Positions 3,651 to 37,957 of a stretch of 64,000 bases of DNA are shown piece after piece. The position numbers and the translations under genes are program-made. The notes below the pieces were generated by a model that saw nothing but the letters and a program-made list of their open reading frames with translations, was not told where the DNA came from and searched no databases. The stretch lies in the NCBI GenBank assembly GCA_025201375.1, contig JAIWZP010000019.1:310001-374000 (forward strand), read 5' to 3'. Origin of the DNA: Gongronella butleri (lineage: Eukaryota > Mucoromycota > Mucoromycetes > Mucorales > Cunninghamellaceae). Each line of letters starts with the position of its first letter. Within the stretch, counting starts at the first letter, position 1.

Positions 3651-6600
3651 TCACTGGATATACAAGGCGCGAAGTCGTCTGTCCATTTCGTTGATGGATT
3701 GCGTAATGGCACACGCAAGCATGTCAGACAGGTCTAAAAAGCAAAAGGTTGTGAGCATGGGGGCTGCTATTTTTTCCCCCTATTTCTTTACCTTGTGTTG
3801 GTGTTTGCTCGCTAATGATTCGTTTCTGTGATGCTTCCGTAAGCCATTTGATGCTTGCGTTTGCGAGGTTGAATGGATGGCTGACGGCGAGGTGTGGGAG
3901 AACAAACGGAGCCCAATTGACGGGCATTTCGCGCAAAAAGGCGTTGAACGCGTCGATGCGTGCGTTGGCCATGGCGGCGGCCTGATGTGGTGGTGTGCTC
4001 GCGGGGACAAAGAACGTGGAGCGCTCGATTTCGCCGACGGCGGCGCGGAATTGCGCACGCGCGTCGTGCACGGCGAGGGACGGCTGGTTCATCTCGATGT
4101 GCATGGCAAGCCACTCGATGGATTTGTGCATTTGCTCGTTAATCGTGTGCGGATCCATCACAAGGATCTTGAAATCCGCCACAGCGCCCAAGCTGGGCAA
4201 GTCAAGGCGCGCATGGAGCTAAAAAGACAAAAAAAAAAATGAATGGGGTGAGACTCATTGCAGAAATGGGTCATTTTCAACGCTTTTTTTTACTTCTCGC
4301 TCCCGCTTTACCTCGGCGACATCATGCTCCCATTGCTTGCTGGGCCAGTAGGTGATCAGCAGCGGGACACGGAGATGCGGATTGCGATGCGTCAGGGATT
4401 GGAAAAACTGATGGAGTCGCGTCTTTTCGGACGCCCACTGAGTGCTGGGATTGTCCTTTAGCGAGAAAATGACCGCACCAAGATCGTCGACGTCCTGGAG
4501 TGAAAAAGATTGTGTGAGGCGTGTACTTAAAAGACAGTCAATTTTGGTTTTTTACCCTGCCGTGCATGTTGTCTGTGTTTGTCAGTGCGCGCAACGTGAT
4601 GCGGCAATCTTTATAGACCGTGGTGCGCAGATGGGTGTCGCCATGCAAGCCAAACTTGACACGGAACCAGCGTGTGGACATGTCATTGTGATTGGCGACA
4701 TTGATCCAGAGTTGGCATCCGCGGGCATTGTTGCTGCGCAAGCGTGCCAGCTTGCTGGCTGCGTACATGTGCATGATGTCGCTGTATGGTGCAAAGTCCC
4801 AAATCTCATTAGCAGGCACGTTGTCCTCCTGAGAATGAAAAATAAATAAATAAAAAAAATGAATAAAATTCGCCTTTTTTTGTTGGTCCTACGACTTTTT
4901 TTTTTTACCTTTTTGTTTGCGATGGCTAGCTTGTGGGTATAGATGGCCTCTGCGGCGCGTTCCTTGCATGCATTGTTATCGAGGGGCTGTGGGCCGATGG
5001 GGACAAAGATGGCGTCGTCTGAATAAATGGCGTTTGTAAAGCGCGCGTGGTGTCTTTTAGCGTCCTCATTTGCGTGTCGCTGTGCGACTGCGGCGCGTGC
5101 GCGGTCGACCCAGGGTTTGGTGAGGCGGCGCAGCACGGCGTACTGGCGCGCCACATCGTGGACGACATTTGCGGTTGTTTCGCGAAGCACGTCGCGCGCC
5201 AGGGTGTCTAGGGCGCGCGCACACACGTGAGCCATCCACTCGGCGTGCCGTTGGGCCTTGAGTCGTGCGCGATTGGCCATGGCCTCGCCGCGCAGGCGTG
5301 CAAGTTCCTGATCGCGCTTTGTCGCGTCATCGGCTGCTTCTTGTGCACGCGGTGCCGCCGCCATGGGCAATGCTGGTGGCGTTGTCGTCGTGGGCGCGCC
5401 AAACAGCGAGGTTAAGGATGACGTGGTCGATGCCAATGGCTGCGGTGCCGGTTGTTGTTGCTGTATTTGCTGCTGCTGTTGCTTCAATTGCTCCTTTTGT
5501 GCGATTTTCCGGCGGAACGCCTCGATTTCCGACTCGAGCTTCTGCAGCTCCCTTGCACCCTCGACATGCGCTTGCCACGCGTCGATATTTTCCATATCTT
5601 GGTCATCGTCGTCCACGGGCGCCTGCACACTAGCACCTGCTGCTGGTAGCATTTGCGATGGCGGCACAAACGGCGCCGCATGTGCACTCAGTCGTGATGC
5701 AATGGACACGGCCGGCGACGGCATGGCCGGACTCACCATGGGCGCCATATCGGGTGGGGGCTCATCGACAATCGCTTGCAATGACAATCCGCCCTTTTTG
5801 CTCTCTACCAGGTTGCTGCGTCGCGGCTTGGGATTCGACAATGGCTCTGTAAGTAGAAGAAATACAAAGAATAGAAAAGAAAAATAAACGGAATGTCGTT
5901 CTCTGTATTTTTTTTTTTTTTTTTGGTTTTGATTTTTACCAACAAAAAAGACCTGCTTTGTGCGTGGATGCTTTTTATGGAATTGGATGACGGGTGATTG
6001 GCCATTGAACGTGACTTGCAGGCCATAGAGACGAGCTTCCGTGATCAGATCGTCCTGTGAGTCGTATTGCAAGAGTGCGGCGACATCTGCGACGGTGACG
6101 TCATTGGGCGAGTGGTAGGCGACGTTCATGGCCTTTAGGGCGCCCTTGCGGATGTCTGGAAAATGGGTTTCCAGCAGGCATGCCATGAGGAACGGTGTGT
6201 CTTGTGCGGCAACCAGCTTGAAAAAGGGCGCGTACATATTTTGGCTGCCCTGGACGTTGGCGGGCTTGTTGCGGCGCGATGGTGTTTCCTTGATTTCGTT
6301 GTTGCGCTGCATCATGCCGCGGAATTTGCGTGCACGCTCGAGCATCGGATGGCGAAAGACGTGTGGCGGCAACGATTGCATTTGTCGAGCAACGTCCGGG
6401 TCGCGCGGGTGGCACAGCAAATAATAGGCGCGGAATTCGGGTTCGTTGGGCATCTCGACTTTTTCCTCTTGCCTCAGATCATCGTAAAACTCGGTCAGAC
6501 TGAGCAGCACCTTGCGCAATTGCTCCATTTCCTGCTGGATGCTGAACCGCTCTTCATCGAGCCCCGACAGCTCGTGCAGCGACAAGATGTGGAATCGCGC

Positions 6601-9022: not shown

Positions 9023-9692
9023 ATGCTTCTTCAAACCGCCGTGCGAAGCCGCGCTTGCTTGCGTTCGACGCTTATCAAGACAGCCTCTTACTCTGCTCTG
9101 CGGCTACAGCCCACGGCCAAGCCCATTGCCGAGGGTCTCGAGCAGGCTGCTGGCCGTGAGGCGACGTGGGCACCCGATCAGCGCCCCAAGAGCGACGCCA
9201 TGACCGGCCCTCGCTTTGAACAAATGGACTTGGCCACCCAGGTAAAGAAAATCGAACGGGAAACGTGGCCATGACGCGGTCAATGGCGCTTAATGCTGAT
9301 TTTTTTCATTTTTTCTCACTTTTTTTTTTGCAAAATGTCCTTAGCCCAACCCCATGGCCGCCATCGATTTGATTGCCGAGGAGCCCATCCGTGTCGTTCA
9401 TCAACGCATTGTCTCTTGCGACGGCGGTAAGACGCGACTTTTTCGCCTTGAATACGTGCAAAATGGCTTATTTTCGTTCTTTTTGATGAATTTTTACTTA
9501 GGTGACGGTGCGCTTGGCCACCCCAAGGTGTACATCAACTTGGTAAGCAGCAACAGTACCAATTCTCAACGTCGATGACTCACACGCTATGGGCTCTTCT
9601 CTATTTTTTTTCGTGTTTTCTAGGACAAGCCTGGTGCGCACGCCTGCGGCTACTGTGGCATCCGATTCCAAAAGCCTGAAGAACACCATTAG
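9023..9692 (+). CDS. NADH dehydrogenase (complex I) zinc-binding subunit NDUFS6
   Basis: Four exons: 9023-9241, 9345-9426, 9502-9542 and 9624-9692, giving 136 aa. The N-terminus is rich in Arg, Ser and Ala without acids, as in a mitochondrial presequence. The C-terminal half carries the CHCC zinc-finger pattern: C of SCDGG, H of GHPKVYINL, then CGYC, ending IRFQKPEEHH. In the family this accessory subunit binds zinc in the peripheral arm of complex I and is needed for assembly of the N-module. Length is typical. Its presence indicates a fungus with a conventional respiratory complex I, unlike budding yeast. Confidence 0.93.
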
Positions 9693-22696: not shown

Positions 22697-24401
22697 ATGG
22701 CTGAAAAGTAAGACCACGACGCGCGCAGCAACCAGGAGACTCAACCCACTAAATAGGAAGATCCTCTTGCTCGGTTCCGGCTTTGTTGCCGCCCCCGCCG
22801 TCGAATATATTATCCGTCGTCCTGAAAACAAGGTGACTATTGGTAAGTTTCGCTCGTTTTCTTGCACAAAGGCTTCGTGCTGTATCGCGCTCATACACAC
22901 TCCTCTGCCTGTCTTGCAGCTAGCCGCCGTCTGGAAAATGCCCAATCTTTGGCCGCAAAGTACCCCGGCACTATCCCTGTCGCCTTTGATATCAACAACG
23001 AGCAAGCTATCGAGGACTTGGTCGCCCAACACGACCTCGTTATCAGGTAAAAATTGGTTGTCCGTGTAGAAATCATTGTCAATACGAGGCATTGGGCGGC
23101 GTGTCCTAATCACTTTTTTATTTTTTAGCTTGATTCCTTATATTTACCACGCTCAGGTGATCAAGGCCGCCGTCAAGCACAAGAAGAACGTCGTCACCAC
23201 GTCCTACGTGTCGCCCGCCATGATGGAATACGACCAAGCGTGAGTTTTAGGGAAAAAAAAATGAGGAAAAATGGCCTCTTGACGCGTTTTTTTTCCTCTA
23301 GTGCCAAGGATGCAGGCATCACTGTCATGAACGAAATTGGTTTGGATCCCGGCATTGATCACTTGTACGCCGTGCGCACCATTGAGGAGGTCCACGCGAA
23401 GGGTGGCAAGGTATGAAAACGAGAAAAAAAAAAAAGGAAAAAAGACGCGCAATGGGGTTGCTGACGCGTCCTTTTTTTTTGTGTGTGCTTAGATGCTGGA
23501 ATTCATCTCGTTCTGCGGTGGTCTGCCTGCGCCCGAGGACTCGAACAATCCGTTTGGTTACAAGTTCTCGTGGTCTGCGCGTGGTGTGCTTCTTGCTTTG
23601 AACAACACGGCCAAGTATCTTGAGAATGGCAAGGTTGTCGAGGTTGCTGGCACTGATTTGATGGACTCTGCACGCAAGCTTGCTTCCGGCTATCCCGGTT
23701 TCTCGTTTGTTGGCTATGGCAACCGCGACTCGACTCCCTACGACAAGCGCTACAACATCCCCGAGGCCACCACGATTATCCGCGGCACGCTCCGCTACGA
23801 TGGTTTCTGCCAATTCGCCAAGGCGCTCTTCTACTTGGGCTTCTTGTCGCAAGAGCCCCATGCGCACTTGGCGGCCGATGCGCCCGAGATCACCTGGAGC
23901 GAGGTGGCGGCCAAGGCCTCCGGCGCTGCCAGCACCAAGTACGAGGACCTGCGCGACGCCATCATTGCCAAGGCGCACCTGGCCAACGACCCCAACCAGA
24001 CCGCCATCTTGGACGGCATGCGCTGGATCGGCTTCTTCAGCGACAACAAGGTCACCCGCGGCGGCAATTTGCTCGACACCCTTTGCGCCACCCTTGAGGA
24101 GAAGATGCAGTACGAGGAGGGCGAGCGCGACATGATCTTCTTGCAGCACCGCTTCGAGATCGAGTGGGCCAATGGCGAAAAGGAGACCCGCACCTCCACC
24201 CTCATCGAATTCGCCGACCCCAACGGCTTCCAGGCCATGGCAAAGACCGTCGGCGTCCCTTGCGGTATCGCCACCCAATTGATCCTCGACGGCAAGCTCA
24301 ACAAGACCGGTGTCCTCGCTCCCATGTCCTCCGACATCAACGACCCCATCATTGAGCTTCTCGAGAAGGAAGGCATCGGCATGGTCGAAAAGATCTTGTA
24401 A
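22697..24401 (+). CDS. LYS9: Saccharopine dehydrogenase (glutamate-forming)
   Basis: Six exons: 22697-22707, 22757-22842, 22920-23046, 23129-23239, 23302-23410 and 23493-24401, giving 450 aa, close to the yeast enzyme. Exon 1 carries only 11 coding nt. It forms saccharopine from aminoadipate semialdehyde and glutamate, the penultimate step of the fungal alpha-aminoadipate lysine pathway. The Rossmann motif LLLGSGFVAAP starts at residue 7. Later family motifs are TTSYVSPAM, MNEIGLDPGIDHL and RGTLRYDGF. Introns cluster in the first quarter; the last two thirds are one exon. The enzyme is cytosolic in the family. Confidence 0.97.
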
Positions 24402-24711
24402 AAAAAAATGAACCTATCCAACTGTCCCAATTCTCACAATTGCAAAAAATAAAAATGGCAAACGTTCCTCCATCACACACATCAAGAAGAGAAAAAGTGA
24501 GAAAAAGTGGAAAATGTGAAGAAAAAAAAACGCGATTTGAAAGTCCACTGCCAGCCATTGGCCGGCTCAGGTGCTCCATATGCAATATTTTTTTTGTCGT
24601 TGGCTGCTGCGGCGCCTGGATTTGAGTGGAGTTTTTCATCGGCGCGTGTTGTTTTCGCTTTTCTTTCCCCCTTCGTCTCCCTTTTTTTTTTTCTTTATTG
24701 AACTTCCAAGG
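24402..24711. other. LYS9 3' region and start of duplicated block
   Basis: LYS9 3' sequence, followed from about 24580 by DNA shared with the other small HNH units (CGGCGCC-GATTTGA and a T/C-rich leader). No additional gene. Confidence 0.5.
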
Positions 24712-25117
24712 ATGCAGCGTCCGCACCAAGAAATCAAGGTATGAAAAAAAGAGCGGCATCCACGGCAATTCAATCGACATTGCATTACTTGTAGATCCCC
24801 CAAGGTTCATCGGTCATGCTCGCTATCGTTGGATGGCCAAAACTCGCAGAGAAAATCCACTTTATCAACAAAATCCGATTTGCTCGACAGCGGTCTAGTC
24901 AACTGTTATGAATTTGGAGTTTGAAATGAAGGACGGCATAAAGGAGCACGTTCCCGTCAAGGATATCGTGTGGCAATCCTTTGTGGGCCACATCCTGGAT
25001 GACCAAGATGTCGTCCACAAAGACGGCAACCCGGCAAACAACGCGTTCGTCAATTTGGAATTGGCGCCGCTGCCGCCAATCCTGATGGTTGAATCCTCGG
25101 CACTGGGTTCTGACTAG
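24712..25117 (+). pseudogene. Small HNH_3-like gene, interrupted copy
   Basis: Exon 1 is 24712-24738 (MQRPHQEIK) and a GT-AG intron leads to 24795. The downstream frame starts IPQGSSVMLA as in its sister at 34277, but then runs through 80-90 bp of unrelated sequence to a stop at 24909. Homology resumes at 24908 (MNLEFEMKDG) and continues to 25117, with the HNH_3 motif HKDGNPANNAFVNLEL. Removing 24813-24898 as a GT-AG intron would rejoin the frame, but that donor (GTCATG) is poor. Either it is an insertion-broken copy, a gene with a young intron, or a 69-aa protein starting at 24908. Confidence 0.6.
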
Positions 25118-25582
25118 TTTTTTTTTTTTCTTTCTCTTTTTCCTTTATCCCTCCACTAGTAGCCTCCCATCCCTTCCCTTCCATGTTTTTCATGCACCTG
25201 CTTTTTTTTTCTTTTCTTTCCACGAGCCGTATTCATCCACGGGTTTTTTCCCATCCCTTGTTCTTTCTTTAGTGCGCGTTTCTTTCTTTTACTTTGCTGG
25301 AGGCTCTTTCTTCCCACACACACACTGATGAATTGGAAATAATAATAAAAAAAACAAAAAGGGCCATCCTCTTCTGCCCTCGTCTCTCTTTTTTTCTCAT
25401 CACTCGCTCACACACAAAAAATCAAGATGGAGGGATCCTCACGAATTGAACTCCGCATCATGCAAAACGAGACAATCGACCTTTTTTTTTTAAAAAAAAT
25501 TGGGCTGCGCATCATTTTCTCGCTTCTCTTTCTCTTTTTTACACTCATTTTCATCCGTCTCCCCTTGTGCCACCCGCTTGCA

Positions 25583-25899
25583 ATGCTGCGTAAGGACGAA
25601 AAAAAGGTACAAAAAGCAAAAACAAACGATTAAAAACAAAAGTGGGCCATTAACAGCGTGTGTTTTTTCAGCGGTGCCTCCAGGGCTTTCAGCTTGTTCC
25701 CCAGTACGTTCTAAATGGCCATTCCGTGGTCGATCTTGTGGGGGAAAATGGACATGTGCTGACCAACTGCGTGAAAGTCGCCATGTGGAAGGCCTTCCAT
25801 GGCCCAATTCCACCCGGCTTCCGAGTCGCCCATCGAGATGGCAACATCACCAACAATTCTTTGACCAACCTCCAATTGATGCCGGGTTCTGACGACTAA
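25583..25899 (+). CDS. Small HNH_3-type protein, second kind (copy 1)
   Basis: Two exons, 25583-25606 (MLRKDEKK) and 25672-25899, giving 83 aa. The core reads W-AFHGPIPPGFRVAHRDGN, then NNSLTNLQL, the HNH_3 layout of phage and intron-encoded homing endonucleases: a conserved G-P-IP-G loop, catalytic-type H in HRDGN, N-N and NL. There is little outside that one domain, so it could be a bare nuclease fold, a DNA-binding remnant or an inhibitor-like fragment. A near-identical copy at 35042 keeps the intron, frame and stop. Neighbours are other HNH genes. Confidence 0.7.
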
Positions 25900-26364
25900 T
25901 CTCTGTTTTCTTTGTTTTCTCGTTTTTTTTTTTTTTTTTTACCACTTTGGCCCATTTTACCGGCATCAAAGTGCTCCCTTTCTTCTCTACCTGCAAAAAT
26001 TGCGCGTCTTCCTTCTTTATATCACTTTATCTTTACCTTCCACCCACTCATCTGCAAGTTTTATCCGGTCCGTGATCATTTTCTATCTATTCTCTTTCTT
26101 TTTCGGAATCTCGCGCCCATTTTACTGATGAAAATTCAACAATAAAAAGTACGGCCATTCTCTCCTGCCGTCGTCCCAATGCAATTGCTCTTGTTTCGCG
26201 GCAAACATGTCAGACTGGTGAACACGCTGCCATGAACATGCCCTGCTCAAATCAGATTTGCTGATTTTCGTGCGACACTTGTGCGCAGAATGGGAGGACA
26301 AAACGGACAATGTCCGACTTGATCAAGAGAGAAATGGCGCATGGTCAATGTGATTGCTAGCGCG

Positions 26365-26407
<43 letters not shown>

Positions 26408-27215
26408 AAAAGAAAAAGAAAAAAAGAAAAAGAGAAAGAGAAAAAAAAGAAAATCGAGTTTCAGCTGTTGTATTTGCCGTCCTCAGAGCATAAGCGATCA
26501 AGTCGTTTAGATTCGCAATGGCGCGTACCTGGTATTTTACCAGTGTTGTAAAAATAGGCAATTGCCCCCACACGTCGTTCCGACGCTCCTTCCCAATCTG
26601 GGGTATGATTCCCCCTCTCGCTCACCTTTATCATCCTTTATGCTCTCACATCGAATTGTCCGCGCTCAATGCGTGATGCATCCATCAATGCCCTTGATAC
26701 AAATAATCCAGACATGCAGAGTCGTGGCTTGGTTATGACCAGCCACGAGCTCGGGCCAAGCAGGGCAAAAATAAAAATTAAAAAGAGCCGCGCCGCAGGC
26801 GCTAGTTTCACCGGCTCAACGGCCATGCTCTGATCAGCCCCATGTATACGGCCCGCGCGGGCCGTTTTTAGATGAATATGATGCGATTTTTATTTTTTTT
26901 AAGAGTGTACACTGCTGGAGAGGTCAGTGTAAGAGAAATTAGCTTTGTTTGTAGCGTGCAAGGAAGAAAAAAGTGCACAGCTAAAATACCCAAAGGGGAG
27001 GAAGGAAAATCAAATGGAAAAAGCGCAATCAGGAAAAAAAAGGCATCCCTACAGCGGGAAATGGGGGAAAATCAAAGGGGAAAAGGGTAAGAGTAAAAAA
27101 TCAATGCTGCAAGGGTCAGGGAGAGGGAGAATCAAACGGGAAAAAAAAAGACAGGGACGAGACAATCAAGTGGAAAAATAAGAGATGCAGGGAAAAAGGA
27201 TGCAAAGACAGGTGC
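25900..27215. other. Spacer between units A and B
   Basis: No gene. 26110-26366 is shared with 35570-35815. A 39-nt A-run at 26367-26405 continues into A/G repeats to about 26450. From 26856 the block shared with 30906 begins; 26990-27200 repeats short AATCAA-GGAAAA motifs and forms the 3' flank of the large HNH gene. Confidence 0.65.
26367..26450. repeat. Poly-A and A/G low-complexity tract
   Basis: 39 consecutive A followed by AAAAAG-type repeats. The same tract, shorter, follows the matching sequence at 35812. Confidence 0.9.
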
Positions 27216-29376
27216 CTACATCTCCATGTTCTCGAGAATGACGGTTTTGCGCTTCTTACCGCGCCAAGTCACGTTGTGGCGCTCATTCAAGCGCTTTTTG
27301 TCTTTACCACCAGCAAGGCGTGTGATGCCGACAGCTGCGCATGCCAATTTACTGCTGCCATATATGCGCTCCTCCTTTGTGGCTGGGTCGAACACTTTGG
27401 TATTTTCGCCCGGAATGAGATCGGCCAAATCACCGCTGTATAATTGCTCGCCCTGGAAAAAAAAGAGAAAAAAAAAAGAAAATGAGCTGCATACTTTCGT
27501 CGCGCGCCATTGAATTACATTTTCATCCAGAGCCAGCGCAAGCAGGACGTCTCGATGGGTGCCGAGCCATTTCCTCTTCCACATCACCCGGTAGTTCTTG
27601 CCGTCGATAAATTGGAAGCGTGCTTTGAGGCCCAAGGCGTCTTGTGCGAGCGAGTAGGCCGGGTACACGACACGCTCCTCGGTCGTGGGATCCACAATGG
27701 CGATCTTTTTGCCTCGGCCAAGAATGTTATTGCCACGAGGGCTTGTCCAGCGTAAATTGCTCACGGCATTGTTGGTCTTGTTTGAGTCAGCGTGGTCGAT
27801 ATAATGCGCTTTGTTCATGATGTCATAGTGCGGCGCGCGTGGCGATGCGCGCTGGCTGACCGTGCCCACAGCCTCGTCGCTGTCGCTCGTCATGATCTCC
27901 TCATTGTCGACACTTTCCACAATCGCCAAATCCTCCAGATCGACAATGATGACTTCCTCCAAAAGCTGCTCGTCCTCGTCGTCTTGCGCCGCCACAGAGG
28001 CCATACGGGCGCGGAAATGCTCGGATTTGATGTATTCGTCCGTGCTCATCGTCTCGCCAGAATCCAAAATCACGGGCAAATCGAAAAGCATCGCCATGAG
28101 CTTGTGGTGACGAATGCGGATTTTCTTGCCAGCAGCGGTGAGTAGATCCAGGCACAAATAATTGGCGTGAAAATTCCAGTAGCGCAGCACAGGTTCCTTG
28201 GATTTCTTGTAGCGGACCGTGCCTGACAGGCTGCCTTCAACGTCCCAAAGATCGTGTGGTGGGATGAGGTCGCCAAGTGTCCGCCACGATGTTGGCGCCA
28301 TGTCCAGAACGCTGGCTGGGAATCGAGGCACTGGAGGAAGGGCGTCTCGCGGTGGTGCGTCGGGATGCCGCTTTTTGGCTCTGTTTTCGGCACGCGACAG
28401 GAGCTGCAGGTTGACGACCCGATTGTCAGACGGAATGGAATTCTTGTGATCGACTTCCATCTTGTCGTCGATAGGGCCCCGCCATATCGTCCACATGAGA
28501 CGCTGCATCTTCCACGGACGAGTCACCGTTTTCTTGACGCCCGTCAACGGGTCCACCACGATTTCCCGGAGATTCATATGCTGATATTGCAAAACAGGAT
28601 TGTCGGATGTGTCGCGCTCTGAGGTGGGCTTCATGCGATCCATGGTAAGAATCGAGTACATTTCACCGATTTTGGAGCTGATGTAGTATGGCGGCATGTT
28701 GTCGATTTCCGGGATCTTGTATTCGATCTCAGGGTGCTTGGTCTGAAAAAGAAGAAAAACGAGAAAAAAAGATGAGATGAGCGTCAAATGGATGGAGAGA
28801 GACAGAGCAGAGCGGGGGATGGGTTGCTACTTACCGAAAGATACTTGAAAAAGAGGCGCTGCAGGACCTTGGGGGAAACAACAAGCAAATTGTCCACAGC
28901 GACGTTGCCCGGGTTGGAGTCTTTGAAAACGATGATGTCGTCCTCCTCCATTGCTAGGAACGTGCTTGCAAAGGCGATGTGCGCACCCACTGACAAGGTG
29001 CGTTGCTGATTTGCATCGACAGACTGCTCCAGGTCGATCGAAGCAAAAGTGACGGCGCCGTCCGCGTCCTTTTTGTAATGAAGCCTGCGTGCATTCCAGG
29101 TGCCATCCAAGTTAGAGTAGCGCAGTACGCGACCCGATGCGTGCAGCTGCACTTGGAACAGGTCGATGTAGGTTTGTGGATACGTGCACACCGTCATAGG
29201 CGCTATAAAAACAAAAGAAAAAGAAGAGAAAGGCCTTGTTTAGTCGTTTGAGACGCGCGAGTGTAGACCTCTCAATGTTTGAACTCACAACTCGCGTTTG
29301 GAGGGACGCTTGGGGATGGCATACCCTCCACAAGGGCAAGGCACAGCTTGTTCACCTCCGTTGGTGATAAAGGCAT
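27216..29376 (-). CDS. Large multi-HNH / NUMOD1-like protein, copy 1
   Basis: Four exons: 29376-29289, 29202-28835, 28742-27519 and 27452-27216, giving 638 aa. Three HNH_3-like cores are visible: residues 121-136 (VFKDSNPGNVAVDNLL, where Phe replaces the expected His), 249-264 (VDHKNSIPSDNRVVNL, preceded by WTIWRGPIDD) and 466-482 (YIDHADSNKTNNAVSNL, then RW). An acidic linker lies at 406-445. Two NUMOD1-like DNA-binding repeats follow: about 496-543 (IVDPTTEERVVYPAYSLAQDAL) and 577-626 (VFDPATKEERIYGSSKLACAAVG), each ending in a basic MWKRK/TWRGKKRK strand. This is the modular layout of intron-encoded HNH endonucleases, but here it is a free-standing nuclear gene with spliceosomal introns. 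Catalytic activity is not assured. Confidence 0.78.
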
Positions 29377-30188
29377 CTGAATAACGAGGTCTTTGGCGAT
29401 TCCGAGGTGAATGGAGAAGTGTAGACAAGGAAAAGAAGTAAAAAAAAAAAAAAAGAAAAAAAAAGAGGGACACGCGAAATGAAGCTCCGCGCTCATGCTT
29501 TAACGACGAGACGAGCTGAAAATCGAGTGTCCCGCAGCAATCCCCTTTTTTTTTGTCAAGTAGAATTGGGACTGTGCCATTTTCGCCACGTGCGATCCTC
29601 CCACCCCCCATTTTCACCCACACAATCACGGGCGCGCTTTTTCTTTTTCCTTTTTTTTTTTTTTCTTTCTTACTTTTTCTTTTTCCTTTTCCTTTTTCTT
29701 TGCGTGCGTTTTGTGCGTGCAGTCGAGCAATCCAGGTTTGTATCAATTAGACAATGAATGAATGCGAACCAAAGCGTCTTGGTAGCAAACACTTTACTGT
29801 ATTATATTGATTCACGTGGTGAAAGGCGCTTTGAAAAACAAAAAGCCAAAAAAAAAAAAAAAACGATATTGAGCAGCCATGAAGAGTCTCGCTTTGCTTT
29901 GACTCAAGGCAAAAAAAAAAAAAAAAAGAGACAGCAGATCGAATTCGTCATTTGCAGTAAAATTGGATAGGGGCAAATGTCCAAAATTGGGGCCAGGAAG
30001 TAAATGAGGCTCGACCACCCCTCATTTTATGAGCATTGGCCACATTTGGAGACTGCAGCGGCGCCCAGATTTGACTTGGGGGGGTGCGCGGCAATCATTG
30101 TTTCGCTTTTCTTTCTCCTTTTTTTTTATTTTTCAAAGAATCACACTTCCGCACATCCCCTTTGTGTCGTTCATTTGAAACACGAAAG
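29377..30188. other. Promoter region between divergent HNH genes, unit B
   Basis: Separates the minus-strand large gene from the plus-strand small gene. It contains A- and T-rich homopolymers (about 29440-29465 and 29640-29700) and a leader shared with 33431-34180. No gene. Confidence 0.6.
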
Positions 30189-30428
30189 ATGCAGCGTCCA
30201 TACCAGGAAATCAAGGTATGAAAAAAGAGCGGCATCAGCGGCAAGGCGGGCCAGTTGATCAATCTACTTTTGTTTTTATTTTAGGTCCCCCGTGGTTCCA
30301 CGGTGATGATCAAGCTTGTTGACACGATGGTGACCGTCAAGATTGGCACGGCAGACAGCGTCAAAATCAGCCTGGTGATCCATAAGGTGCTGTCGCGTTG
30401 CTTTAACCAGGCCGTGCACGACCTGTAA
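30189..30428 (+). pseudogene. Small HNH-family relic without HNH core
   Basis: Exon 1 30189-30215 (MQRPYQEIK) and exon 2 30285-30428 give 56 aa. It opens like its sisters (VPRGSTVM against IPQGSSVM) but then diverges and hits TAA at 30426. Reading on in the same frame reaches the family ending GGSD and TAG at 30477, so the TAA looks like a nonsense change. The G-P-IP-G loop and HKDGN motif are missing. It is probably a decayed copy; a short expressed protein cannot be excluded. Confidence 0.6.
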
Positions 30429-31264
30429 ACAGCCGTACGGAACGACTCGTTGGAATCGCCGTCTGGTGGCTCTGATTAGTTTTTTCTTGCGTTTTCTTGA
30501 ATCGCCTGCTTCCTTTTCACAATCAACACTGTTTTTTACCTCTCATTGCCTGTTGCAAACATCCATTTTTTCCATGCATAGGCACACTTTTCCCTTTATG
30601 TCCTCTTTTTACATTACTTTTTCGCGCGTCTCCTAGTCCCATTTTCTTTTCACGCGTCCAATTCATCCTTTTTTTCGGCGCGCATCTTTCCGCACGACGC
30701 CAATTACGAAATAAAAAAAAAAAAGAAGGGCCATTCTTCCCCTGCCCTCGTTCCCACATTGCTTCTTGGTCTTTGTGAGTGCGTGATGTGTACATGCGTG
30801 TGTCGAAAATGAGGCCAGGATTGCCTAATCGCAAATGGCTGCCCTTGCAGGTCTTTTCCGCGTTCATTAGGTTTCCAAAAGTATCTCCTCTTGCTCTCAT
30901 TTTCACGCGGGCCGTTTTAGATGAATATGATGCGATTTTTATTTTTTTTAAGAGTGTACACTGCTGGAGAGATCAGTGTAAGAGAAATTAGCTTGGTTTG
31001 TAGCGTGCAATGGAGGAAAAAAATGGCACAGCTAAAATATCCAAAGGGGAGGAAGGAAAATCAAATGGAAAAAGGGCAATCAAGAAAAAAAAAGCATCCC
31101 TACAGCGGGAAAAGAGGGAAAATCAAAGGGGAAAAGGGTAAGAGTAAAAAATCACCGCTGCAAGGGTCAAGGAGAGGGAGAATCAAACGGGAAAAAAAGA
31201 CAGGGAGGAGACAATCAAGTGGAAAAATAAGAGATGCAGGGAAAAAGGATGCAAAGACGGGTGC
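30429..31264. other. Spacer between units B and B'
   Basis: 3' flank of the relic small gene, a T/C-rich stretch with AATAAA near 30709, then, from 30906, the A/G-rich 3' flank of the second large HNH gene. No gene seen. Confidence 0.55.
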
Positions 31265-33430
31265 CTACATCTCCAAATTCTCGAGAACGACGGTTTTGCG
31301 CTTCTTACCGCGCCAAATCACGTTGTGGCGCTTATTCAAGCGCTTTTTGTCTTTACCACCACGAAGGCGTCTGATGCCAATAGCTGCGCATGCCAATTTG
31401 CTGTTGCCATATATGCGCTCCTCCTTTGTGGCTGGGTCGAACACTTTGGTATTTTCGCCCGGAATGAGATCGGCCAAATCACCGCTGTATAATTGCTCGC
31501 CCTGGAAAAAAGAGAGAAAGAAAAAAAAAGAGAAAATGAGCTGCATACTTTCGTCGCGCGCCATTGAATTACATTTTCATCCAGAGCCAGTGCAAGCAGG
31601 ACGTCTCGATGGGTGCCGAGCCATTTCCTCTTCCACATCACCCGGTAGTTCTTGCCGTCGACAAATTGGAAGCGTGCTTTGAGGCCCAAGGCGTCTTGTG
31701 CGAGCGAGTAGGCCGGGTACACGACACGCTCCTCGGTCGTGGGATCCACAATGGCGATCTTTTTGCCTCGTGCGAGAATGTTATTGCCACGAGGGCTTGT
31801 CCAGCGTAAATTGCTCACGGAATTGTTGGTCTTGTTGGAGTCAGCGTGGTCGATATAATGCGCTTTGTTCATGATGTCATAGTGCGGCGCGCGTGGCGAT
31901 GCGCGCTGGCTGACCGTGCCCACAGCCTCGTCGCTGTCGCTTATCATGATCTCCTCATCGTCGACACTTTCCACAAGCGCCAAATCCTCCAGATCGACAA
32001 TGATGACTTCCTCCAAAAGCTGCTCGTCCTCGTCGTCTTGCGCCGCCACAGAGGCCATACGGGCGCGGAAATGCTCGGATTTGATGTATTCGTCCGTGCT
32101 CATCGTCTCGCCAGAATCCAAAATCACGGGCAAATCGAAAAGCATCGCCATGAGCTTGTGGTGACGAATGCGGATTTTCTTGCCAGCAGCGGTGAGTAGA
32201 TCCAGGCACAAATAATTGGCGTGAAAATTCCAGTAGCGCAGCACAGGTTCCTTGGATTTCTTGTAGCGGACCGTGCCTGACAGGCTGCCTTCAACGTCCC
32301 AAAGATCGTGTGGTGGGATGAGGTCGCCAAGTGTCCGCCACGATGTTGGCGCCATGTCCAGAACGCTGGCTGGGAATCGAGGCACTGGAGGAAGGGCGTC
32401 TCGCGGTGGTGCGTCGGGATGCCGCTTTTTGGCTTTGTTTTCGGCACGCGACAGGAGCTGCAGGTTGACGACCCGATTGTCAGACGGAATGGAATTCTTG
32501 TGATCGACTTCCATCTTGTCGTCGATAGGGCCCCGCCATATCGTCCACATGAGACGCTGCACCTTCCACGGACGAGTCACCGTTTTCTTGACGCCCGTCA
32601 ACGGGTCCACCACAATTTCCCGGAGATTCATATGCTGATATTGCAAAACAGGATTGTCGGATGTGTCGCGCTCTGAGGTGGGCTTCATGCGATCCATGGT
32701 AAGAATCGAGTACATTTCACCGATTTTGGAGCTGATGTAGAGCGGCGGCATCGTGTCGATTTCCGGGATCTTGTATTCGATCTCAGGGTGCTTGGTCTGA
32801 AAAAGAAGAAAAACGAGAAAAAAAGATGAGATGAGCGTCAAATGGATGGAGAGAGACAGAGTAGAGCGGGGGATGGGTTGCTACTTACCGAAAGATACTT
32901 GAAAAAGAGGCGCTGCAGGACCTTGGGGGAAACAACAAGCAAATTGTCCACAGCGACGTTGCCCGGGTTGGAGTCTTTGAAAACGATGATGTCGTCCTCC
33001 TCCATTGCTAGGAACGTGCTTGCAAAGGCGATGTGCGCGCCCACTGACAAGGTGCGTTGCTGATTTGCATCGACAGACTGGTCTAGCTTAATCGCAGCAA
33101 AAGTGACGGCGCCGTCCGCGCCCTTTTTGTAATCTAACTTGCGTGTAGTCCAGGTGCCGTCCAAGTCAGAGTAGCGCAGTACGCGACCCGATGCGTGCAG
33201 CTGCACTTGGAACAGGTCAATGTAGGTTTGTGGATACGTGCACACCGTCATAGGCGCTATAAAAACAAAAGAAAAAGAAGAGAAAGGCCTTGTTTAGTCG
33301 TTTGAGACGCGCGAGTGTAGACCTCTCAATGTTTGAACTCACAACTCGCGTTTGGAGGGACGCTTGGGGATGGCATACCCTCCACAAGGGCAAGGCGCAG
33401 CTTGTTCACCTCTGTTGGTGATAAAGGCAT
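31265..33430 (-). CDS. Large multi-HNH / NUMOD1-like protein, copy 2
   Basis: Four exons: 33430-33343, 33256-32889, 32796-31573 and 31501-31265, giving 638 aa with the same splice sites as copy 1. All three HNH-like cores and both NUMOD1-like repeats are kept, and no frameshift or stop separates the copies. About 27 residues differ by eye. Nine fall within residues 60-90; that stretch apart, the 122 residues of exon 2 are unchanged. Another seven lie in the last 78 residues. The open frame over 1.9 kb of coding sequence argues for recent duplication, constraint, or both. Confidence 0.78.
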
Positions 33431-34180
33431 CTGAATAACGAGGTCTTTGGCGATTCCGAGGTGAATGGAGAAGTGTAGACAAGGAAAAGAAGTAAAAAAA
33501 AAAAAAAAGAAAAAAAAAAGAGGGACACGCGAAATGAAGCTCCGCGCTCATGCTTTAACGACGAGACGAGCTGAAAATCGAGTGTCCCGCAGCAATCCCC
33601 CTTTTTATTTTGTCAAGTAGAATTGGGACTGTGCCATTTTCGCCAAGTGCGATCTTCCCACCCCCCATTTTCACCCACACAATCACGGGCGCGCTTTTTT
33701 TTCTTTTTTTTTTTCTTTTTTTTTCTTTTTCTTTTCCTTTTCCTTTTTCTTTGCGTGCGTTTTGTGCGTGCGGTTGAGCAATACAGGTTTGCATCAATTA
33801 GGCAATGAACGAATGCGAATCAAGGCGTCTTGGCAGCATACACTTTTACTGTATTGATTCACGTGGTGAAAGGCCCTTGGAAAAACAAAAAGCCAAAAAA
33901 AAAAAAAAAAAAGAGCAGATCGAATCCGTCATTTGCAATAAAATTGGATAGGAGCAAAGGTCCACTTCTTTTTTCCTTCCAAAATTGGGGCCAGGAAGTA
34001 AATGAGGCTCGACCACCAGTCATTTTATGAGCATTGGCCACATTTGGAGACGCAGCGGCGCCCAGATTTGACTTGGGGGGGGGAAGGTGGCAATCATTGT
34101 TTCGCTTTTCTTTCTTCTTTTTTTTCAAAGAATCACGCTTCACCAAATCCTCTTTGTGTCCTCCATTTAAATCAGTGAAG
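33431..34180. other. Promoter region between divergent HNH genes, unit B'
   Basis: Counterpart of 29377-30188, with a GAAAAAG/TTTTTC homopolymer-rich sequence and the shared GGGGCCAGGAAGTAAATGAG leader. No gene. Confidence 0.6.
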
Positions 34181-34528
34181 ATACAACGTCCGCACCAAGA
34201 AGTCAAGGTATGAAAAAAAGAACGGCATCCACGGCAAGCTGGCCAGTTATTCAATCGACATTGCATTAACTTGTAGATCCCCCAAGGTTCATCGGTCATG
34301 CTGGCCAACAATCCTGTTGTCAAAGCCGAGCTTGAAATGAACGACGGCACAAAGGAGCACGTTCCCGTCAAGGATCTCGTGTGGCACACCTTTGTGGGTC
34401 CCATCCCGGACGGCCAACACGTCGTCCATAAGGACGGCAACCCGGCAAACAACGCGCTCGTCAATTTGGAATTGGCGACGCTGCCGCCGAACCTGAAGGT
34501 TGAAAATCCGGCACCGGCTTCTGACTAG
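34181..34528 (+). CDS. Small HNH_3-type protein, first kind; original start lost
   Basis: The exon pattern of the family is present: 34181-34207, a GT-AG intron, then 34277-34528. The initiator reads ATA instead of ATG, so the 92-aa form cannot start there. The first ATG in frame is at 34298 and gives 76 aa. That protein keeps the full core: VWHTFVGPIPDGQHVV, then HKDGNPANN and LVNLEL. It is the best-preserved member of this kind in the window. Confidence 0.6.
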
Positions 34529-35041
34529 TTTTTTTTTTCTTTTCTCTTTTTCCTTTACCCCTCCACTTGTAGTCTCCCACCACTTCCATTCCATGTTTTT
34601 CATGCACGCGCTGTTTTTTTCTTTTCTATTCACGCGTCTTTTCCCATCCACGCGTCTTTCCCATCCCTTGTTCTTTCTTTAGTGCGCGTTGTCTTTCATT
34701 TACTTTGCTGGCGGCTCCTTGTTCCCACACACACACGGATGAATTGGAAATAATAATAAAAAAATAAAAAAAATAAAAAAGGGCCATCCTCTCCTGCTCT
34801 CACCTCTTTTTTTCTCATCACTCGCTCACAAAAAAAAAAAAAAAAAATCAAGATGGAGGGATCCGCTTCACGAATTGAACTCCGCATCATGCAGAACGCA
34901 AGAAAAGCGACCTTTTTTTTGATAATTGGGCTGCGGCGTTGGGATTTGAAAAAAAAGTACCATTGGCGCGTCATTTTCTCGCTTCTCTTTCTCTTTTTTA
35001 CATTCTTTTACATCCATCTCCCCTTGTGCCACCCGCTTGCA

Positions 35042-35362
35042 ATGCCGCGTAAGAACGAAAAAAAGGTACGTACAAAAAGTAAAAACAAAAGATTAAAGCA
35101 AAAAGTGGACCATTAACAGCGTGTGTTTTTTCAGCGGTGCCTCCAGGGCTTTCAGGTTGTTCCCCAGTACGTTCTGAATGGCCATTCCGTGATCAATCTT
35201 GTGGGTAAACATGGACATGTGCTGACCATTCGCGTGAAAGACGCCATGTGGAAGACCGTCCGTGGCCCAATTCCACCCGGCTTCCGCGTCGCCCATCGAG
35301 ATGGCGACATCACCAACAATTCCTTGACCAGTCTCCAATTGCTGCCGGGTTCTGACGATTAG
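35042..35362 (+). CDS. Small HNH_3-type protein, second kind (copy 2)
   Basis: Two exons, 35042-35065 (MPRKNEKK) and 35135-35362, giving 83 aa. Identical architecture to the copy at 25583 with scattered substitutions. The HNH_3 core WKTVRGPIPPGFRVAHRDGD, then NNSLTSLQL, is retained, except that Asn-Leu of the final NL pair has become Ser-Leu and N of HRDGN is D. Confidence 0.7.
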
Positions 35363-36237
35363 TCCCTGTTTGCCTTGGTTTCTCGTTTTTTTTAGCACTT
35401 TTCCCATTTACCATCATTGATGCGTCCCCCATTCCTCTCCACCTGCACAAAACGCGCGTCTTCCATCTTTGTATCACTTGATCTTGACTTCCATTCCACT
35501 CTTATGCGCGCTTTATCTTGTCCGTGATCATGTTCTATCTTTTTTCTTTCTTTTTCGGAATCACGCATCCATTTTACTGATGAAAATTCAACAATAAAAA
35601 TTACGGCTATTCTCTCCTGCCGTCTTCCCAACTCAATTGCGCTTGTTTCGCGGCAAAAGTGTTCGTGGAGACGCTGCTATGAACATGCCCTGGTCAAATC
35701 AGATTTGCTGATTTTTGTGTGACACTTGTGCGCAGAATGGGAGGACAAAACGGACAATGTCCGACTTGATCAAAGAAAAATGGCGCGTGGTCAATGTGAT
35801 TGCCAGCGCGCCAAAAAAAAAAAAAAAAAAAAAAAGAAAAAAGAAAAAAAGAAAAAAAGAAAAAAAGAAAAAGATAAGAAAAATCGAGCTTTAGCCCCTT
35901 TCAAGAGGCACATCACGCAACGACGCGTCGTCAAAAGTGCAAATAAAAGGATTGAACTGCGCATGGCCCAAAGAATTCAAAAAAAAAGGGTGCACGTTTA
36001 AGTGCCGCTGGAAAAGTATGATTTCATCTGTTCACGGCCCGTGGGCCATGCACTGGCGGCTGCTGATGCTAAATTTGATCGGCAAAAGGTTGGACCGGCG
36101 GTTTCCCCTTGCTTGCCCGGCCAATGAGCCTGAAAAAAAAAGTTTTTCTTTGCTTTCCCGCCCTTGTTTTTCTTTTCTCTTTTTCCCTCTCGTTTTCAAT
36201 CTTTTGCCCACCCCCACCCTCTTTTAAAACTTGAACC
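35363..36237. other. Trailer of unit A' and IDH2 promoter
   Basis: Shared trailer to about 35815, an A/G-rich low-complexity tract to 35880, then unique DNA. The last 100 bp before IDH2 are strongly pyrimidine-rich. No gene seen. Confidence 0.55.

Positions 36238-37957
<1,720 letters not shown>

Follow-up and report, generated by a model that had tools for sequence, protein, structure and literature searches.

What kind of genes make up the HNH-bearing cluster in the nuclear genome of the mucoralean mold Gongronella butleri, and what maintains them there? The window, which is the whole 64,000-nucleotide stretch analyzed, corresponds to C22:310001-374000 in a 33.0-Mb genome of 110 contigs; positions below are those of the window, and loci elsewhere are named by contig. 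The cluster contains two large genes on the minus strand and five small genes on the plus strand. The large genes read best as members of an old, host-resident family of two-site HNH nucleases that has undergone local duplication, a reading to which we assign a probability of about 0.5. A preliminary description of the locus had reported two intact large genes, and both were recovered, at 29376-27216 and 33430-31265:

27216..29376, minus strand: large gene L1, exons 29376-29325, 29202-28835, 28742-27519, and 27452-27216; 626 amino acids with HNH_3 repeats R1, R2, and R3, splicing modelled on the deposited L2
31265..33430, minus strand: large gene L2, exons 33430-33379, 33256-32889, 32796-31573, and 31501-31265; identical to P0001

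The spliced L2 translation is an exact match to the deposited 626-amino acid protein P0001 (BC940DRAFT_353852), and that of one small gene, B2, reproduces the deposited P0002 (BC940DRAFT_300163), indicating at the level of gene models that the cluster has spliceosomal introns of its own, as first proposed. The length initially given for the large protein, 638 amino acids, is corrected to 626 because the deposited model starts with an additional 52-nt exon and splices its last intron at a different donor.

Judged from their sequences, the large proteins belong to the HNH_3/His-Me nucleases. L2 matches HNH_3 (PF13392) with 84.3 bits (E = 4.2e-24, cut-off 24.8) and in three stretches at a per-stretch E ≤ 5, and the exon-2 frame of L1 matches in two stretches with 70.5 bits; with E values from 9e-20 (L1) to 4e-24 (L2) these matches are beyond chance. 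The L1 repeat-1 exon alone gives a weak match of 15.9 bits (E = 0.01), under the cut-off, so the earlier count of three HNH_3 cores per large protein holds for L2 at a loose threshold and not for this L1 exon taken by itself. The nearest solved relative is I-HmuI, the HNH homing nickase of phage SPO1 (PDB 1u3e), and the best repeat-2 profile matches are the phage HNH endonuclease families PHROG 959, 59, and 99 (1e-20 to 7e-17). The beta-beta-alpha metal fold of HNH_3 and His-Me finger nucleases was found, the predicted structure of repeat 2 matching I-HmuI residues 1–105 with a model that fits from residue 1. Two NUMOD1-like repeats per protein had also been described; the NUMOD1 profile (PF07453) matches none of nine C-terminal pieces at E ≤ 10 and, at E ≤ 1, nothing anywhere in the genome; an alignment to I-HmuI 132–149 scores 0.3 bits. 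The Pfam profile search called no NUMOD4 in L2. The one NUMOD4 match in the genome, weak and under the cut-off, falls in a 331-amino acid frame on C35 (L086:2970-3965), in which two worn HNH-like units are seen by eye; this frame is a further branch of the family, not called by HNH_3 above its cut-off.

In I-HmuI, H75 is the general base. The tetrad corresponding to D74, H75, N87, and N96 is complete in 10 of the 12 last-two repeats from six loci. D74, H75, and N96 are present in repeats 2 and 3 of L1, L2, C42, C37, and C78 and in the last two repeats of C24, and catalytic residues have been lost from the earlier repeats of the large proteins. The count of 12 omits L2 (equal to L1 at these residues), the second C23 unit, and the second and third C78 copies, together with C24:323k, C28, the second C37 copy, and C35, where repeat order is unclear or the copies are near-duplicates. 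C89 and C23, outside the count, have one tabulated unit each, with a complete tetrad.

Such a pattern suggests that the large proteins work like a doubled I-HmuI-type nickase. Each would consist of at least three phage-type modules, with an N-terminal part like I-HmuI 1–70 joined to an HNH_3 core. The N-terminal module or modules, which are without catalytic residues, most likely only bind DNA, and the last two, with the full tetrad, would each nick one strand. A single chain could then place two nicks, or cut both strands with a stagger, at a site that is long and asymmetric. We infer that DNA is cut, that two active sites per chain take part, and that the activity serves the host, for example in cutting foreign or mobile DNA; from the sequence, P0001 H239 and H457 are each predicted to control one nick. 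The large proteins share with I-HmuI the HNH_3 core, the four catalytic residues in the last two repeats, and the predicted repeat-2 fold. They differ from it in having at least three modules per chain, the first ones catalytically worn, and in being encoded by nuclear genes with spliceosomal introns, with no group I intron found and no NUMOD1 tail detected by profile. More tentatively, a phage nicking module may have been domesticated as a single chain with two live sites and at least one dead, DNA-binding module, forming a nuclear family at several loci that serves the host, for example by cutting mobile or invading DNA or in programmed rearrangement.

The HNH_3 scan of the genome gave at least 23 exon matches on eight contigs, and protein searches added C24:323k, C28, and one more copy each on C37 and C78; all family counts are lower bounds. 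Six loci are readable as multi-HNH proteins, namely C22 (L1 and L2), C42, C37, C78, C56, and the five-repeat C24, with identities to L2 of 28% (C42), 28% (C37), and 23% (C56). The region C78:239000-248900 (L028) holds several copies or fragments of the family, oriented both ways, and is a second array like the C22 cluster. Intron positions were compared among L, C42, C37, C78, and C56, with C24, C23, and C89 left out. As read from the sequence, a phase-0 intron directly follows repeat 1 at all five of these loci, and another precedes the last C-terminal repeat at the four examined for it (L, C42, C37, and C78). Because these positions are common to far-diverged paralogues, the introns appear to be older than the divergence of the family, and spread of the family through DNA duplication within the nuclear genome is the simplest reading. 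Purifying selection would then keep the family as host genes, and local segmental duplication would make it grow and shrink, the C22 cluster representing one array.

The same loci bear on whether these genes are selfish. A free-standing nuclear homing nuclease, which cuts sites that lack it, is copied in by repair, and gained its spliceosomal introns later, would account for copies at many unlinked loci and for the occurrence of intact copies next to others that appear decayed, as a cycle of gain and loss would produce, and I-HmuI is itself a homing nickase. We regard this explanation as doubtful, given the intron positions common to far-diverged paralogues, an amplification at C22 that took the form of tandem duplication with shared flanks rather than insertion into a like target, and fetched loci that have only HNH exons and short fragments in common. 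Self-splicing RNA was not found either: no Rfam family reached the gathering threshold in the window, and at E ≤ 0.5 the cluster gave no self-splicing RNA and a single chance-level microRNA match. Large and small genes are accordingly free-standing and nuclear, as originally described; the statement that they lie outside a group I intron or intein is borne out for group I introns, and inteins had no dedicated search. Because residence in a self-splicing intron was not found, the large genes are not filed as homing endonuclease genes.

Selection was assessed from nonsynonymous (dN) and synonymous (dS) divergence. In the repeat-2 exon, the three C78 copies give dN/dS ratios of 0.11, 0.21, and 0.10 by NG86 and 0.15, 0.40, and 0.22 by YN00; between C37 and C78 silent sites are saturated (dN 0.27 and 0.42), hence no ratio is given. 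L1 and L2 differ by dN 0.023 and dS 0.041 (NG86), with mismatches at 2.7% of coding and 5.5% of non-coding positions. Codon usage correlates with that of three pooled host genes at r = 0.89 for L1 and 0.87 for L2; the host genes themselves give 0.79–0.93, values inflated because each forms part of its own pool. The other members extend downward from 0.80 (C24).

Several observations weigh against a family kept as functional host nucleases. The L1/L2 ratio of 0.56 (NG86) or 0.82 (YN00) indicates weak constraint, with NG86 ratios by parts of 0.53, 0.64, 1.95 (on very few changes), and 0.49, and for the small pair B1/B2 the ratio is 0.69 (dN 0.089, dS 0.130; NG86). L1 and L2 have no indel in 1,878 coding sites against 12 in 1,397 non-coding sites, a contrast inflated by homopolymer slippage in T and A runs of the non-coding part. 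The C56 gene (r = 0.53) and the B genes (B1+B2, 0.42) are less host-like in codons, C56 is without D74 in both last repeats, and in the structure model pLDDT is low for the tail and for repeats 1 and 3. A T run in the repeat-1 exon of the first C78 gene has slipped by one base, leaving that exon in two frames, and stops, some of them perhaps intronic, lie within the matched stretch at C28, C24:323k, and the second copy on C37; part of the family may thus be decaying. No relative outside this genome was returned by protein search: of 7,999 candidates scored against the exon-2 frame of L1, the single match was the deposited L2, and a four-sequence family alignment gave one match among 7,997. Transposon-type genes also adjoin three loci, as seen in ten chosen open reading frames that were scanned.

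Taken to its end, such decay would make the genes relics of an old invasion, in which a phage-like HNH gene of bacterial, viral, or polinton-like origin arrived and is now eroding, with open frames surviving by chance. The stops (C23 has one as well, possibly intronic), the C78 frame slip, the weak constraint on both the L and B pairs, and the alteration of all three small A copies agree with this. It is nevertheless unlikely in view of the tetrad left intact in 10 of 12 repeats, the NG86 ratios of 0.10–0.21 at C78, and the absence of coding indels between L1 and L2. The low ratios at C78 set against the weak L1/L2 constraint indicate that other parts of the family have been held as protein, with weaker or more recent constraint on the C22 cluster.

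The five small genes of the cluster were found as described, B1 and B2 intact and the three A copies altered:

24712..25117, plus strand: small gene A1, one HNH_3 (30.4 bits in the genome scan); interrupted at about 24825-24902 by a dispersed-repeat fragment
25583..25899, plus strand: small gene B1, exons 25583-25606 and 25672-25899; 83 amino acids, one HNH_3, 44.7 bits
30189..30479, plus strand: small gene A0, which has lost the HNH core and stops prematurely near 30426; from the alignment of the three A copies, the stop read in the sequence
34181..34528, plus strand: small gene A2, HNH_3 kept (44.2 bits), first-exon ATG changed to ATA, in-frame ATG in exon 2
35042..35362, plus strand: small gene B2, exons 35042-35065 and 35135-35362; 83 amino acids, HNH_3 30.0 bits

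A2, B1, and B2 all score above the curated HNH_3 cut-off, and the I-HmuI aspartate D74 is kept in none of the four tabulated small proteins. A1 and A2 differ by dN 0.181 and dS 0.242. The repeat fragment inside A1 (about 24825-24904) occurs at 17 other places in the genome. Within it, the 71 nt at 24828-24898 start with GT, end with AG, and equal the net insert; reading them as an introner was rejected, and plain insertion of a repeat fragment is equally likely, because the similarity among other copies of the repeat extends beyond both ends.

The arrangement of the cluster is that of partial copies of one unit. Ungapped repeats align 26866-30226 with 30915-34218 (offset about 4,000–4,050) and 24903-26326 with 34314-35773 (offset about 9,411–9,463), which supports the earlier view that the cluster was amplified by duplication and replaces the A-B-B'-A' order with three partial copies, [A1 B1], [L1 A0], and [L2 A2 B2]:

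24700..26450, limits approximate, no strand: partial unit of A1 (+) and B1 (+), L missing; from ungapped repeats
26463..26848, no strand: dispersed repeat, about 385 bp long, separating two units, at more than twenty genome places with 81–93% identity
26866..30480, limits approximate, no strand: partial unit of L1 (-) and A0 (+), B missing; from ungapped repeats and the A alignment
30915..35883, limits approximate, no strand: most complete duplication unit, L2 (-), A2 (+), and B2 (+); from ungapped repeats

When the two offsets are read together, the ancestral unit deduced from the sequence is large (-), A (+), B (+). The 26463-26848 repeat lies within about 1 kb of an A1-type repeat at C78, C71, C40, and C39, and the two may belong to one element.

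It had been suggested that large and small genes function as a set; this would be a nuclease with an inhibitor or partner, duplicated together, as the ancestral unit would permit. No such working set was found at any other family locus: with small-type queries no small-type gene was detected across the genome outside the C22 cluster, the one weak match (E = 0.006) being the exon that encodes repeat 2 in the large gene at C56. Three of the five small genes are altered, and one unit has no L and another no B. Because small genes were found only at C22, the A copies are damaged, and D74 is missing from the four tabulated small proteins, we consider a nuclease-plus-partner unit very unlikely. The small genes are better seen as local offshoots, probably catalytically dead and decaying, that would act at most as DNA-binding competitors. 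Among the three options first left open, a selfish unit, a domesticated nuclease, or a nuclease with partner, a host-kept nuclease family therefore fits better.

The surroundings of the cluster bear on whether it belongs, as cargo or component, to a larger transposon or endogenous virus that carries another recombinase. Scanning part of the region's open reading frames for viral hallmark genes identified host metabolic genes on both sides:

23493..24401, plus strand: left neighbor, saccharopine dehydrogenase C-terminal exon (PF16653, 8.7e-83)
36825..37499, plus strand: right neighbor, isocitrate/isopropylmalate dehydrogenase exon (PF00180, 6.5e-41)

The dispersed repeats within the cluster would suit the cargo explanation, as would the transposon-type neighbors found among the ten scanned frames. 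Near the five-HNH gene of C24 lies an NDC10_II plus GCR1_C protein (L026:5834-7567), which we take to be of Crypton type; near the C23 member is a frame with a Cas12f1-like TNB domain (L029:8583-9311; PF07282, 9e-12), Fanzor/TnpB-like by name; and a DDE_3 transposase is found near the C37 member. These neighbors differ from locus to locus and are no shared engine of the family. An all-versus-all comparison of frames of at least 50 amino acids from nine fetched loci (8.0–9.9 kb each) and window positions 20000-41000 revealed no shared transposase or recombinase, only HNH exons with the opposite-strand frames overlapping them and short fragments. The comparison gave no sign that the cluster is one arm of a transposon with a different recombinase, and with host genes on either side the cargo explanation is hardly credible. 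Short non-HNH frames common to three loci (L030:3584-4069, L032:6398-7297, and L026:8226-8423; about 36–49% identity) are possibly another dispersed repeat.

HNH nickases of the I-HmuI type are known chiefly as mobile genes of phages. Beyond the genome, DNA collections of prokaryotes, phages, and viruses were searched. Viral contigs matched at 32 loci, where the fetched frames match by one stretch each, and a second query gave no match to viral contigs; of 106 matching phage records, none spans 80% of the query, in contrast to the multi-module large proteins. Two loci in prokaryote genomes match P0001 residues 300–350 and 300–335, ahead of the repeat-3 core. The small proteins returned one match among three in the protein search, the deposited B2. 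The lack of fungal relatives says little, because the family-alignment search missed its own rows C42, C37, and C56, which may not be deposited.

Among the titles and abstract openings listed in a literature search on HNH/NUMOD genes, no multi-HNH nuclear family of fungi was named. Polinton-like viruses, according to an excerpt of the report (PMC12220804), carry HNH_3 genes, with one I-HmuI match in a NUMOD4-HNH_3-AP2 fusion, and so share with G. butleri the presence of HNH_3 in eukaryotic DNA elements. As far as that excerpt goes, most of their HNH domains are joined to a helicase or another domain within viral elements, whereas in G. butleri the repeated HNH units belong to a dispersed gene family located between host genes. 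A nuclear chromosome with a homing-type nuclease gene has a fungal precedent in Ustilago maydis, where the available portion of PMC7593156 describes a remnant of mitochondrial origin, with one telomeric copy, of the GIY-YIG type and with a mutated active site. On that description it differs from the multi-locus HNH family of G. butleri, which has its own introns and conserved catalytic residues.

If the reading of a host-kept family of fused modules is true, the family illustrates a route from a nicking enzyme to a two-cut enzyme with long asymmetric recognition. The large proteins would then be candidate fungal nucleases for genome defense or rearrangement, and a possible source of compact single-chain cutters.

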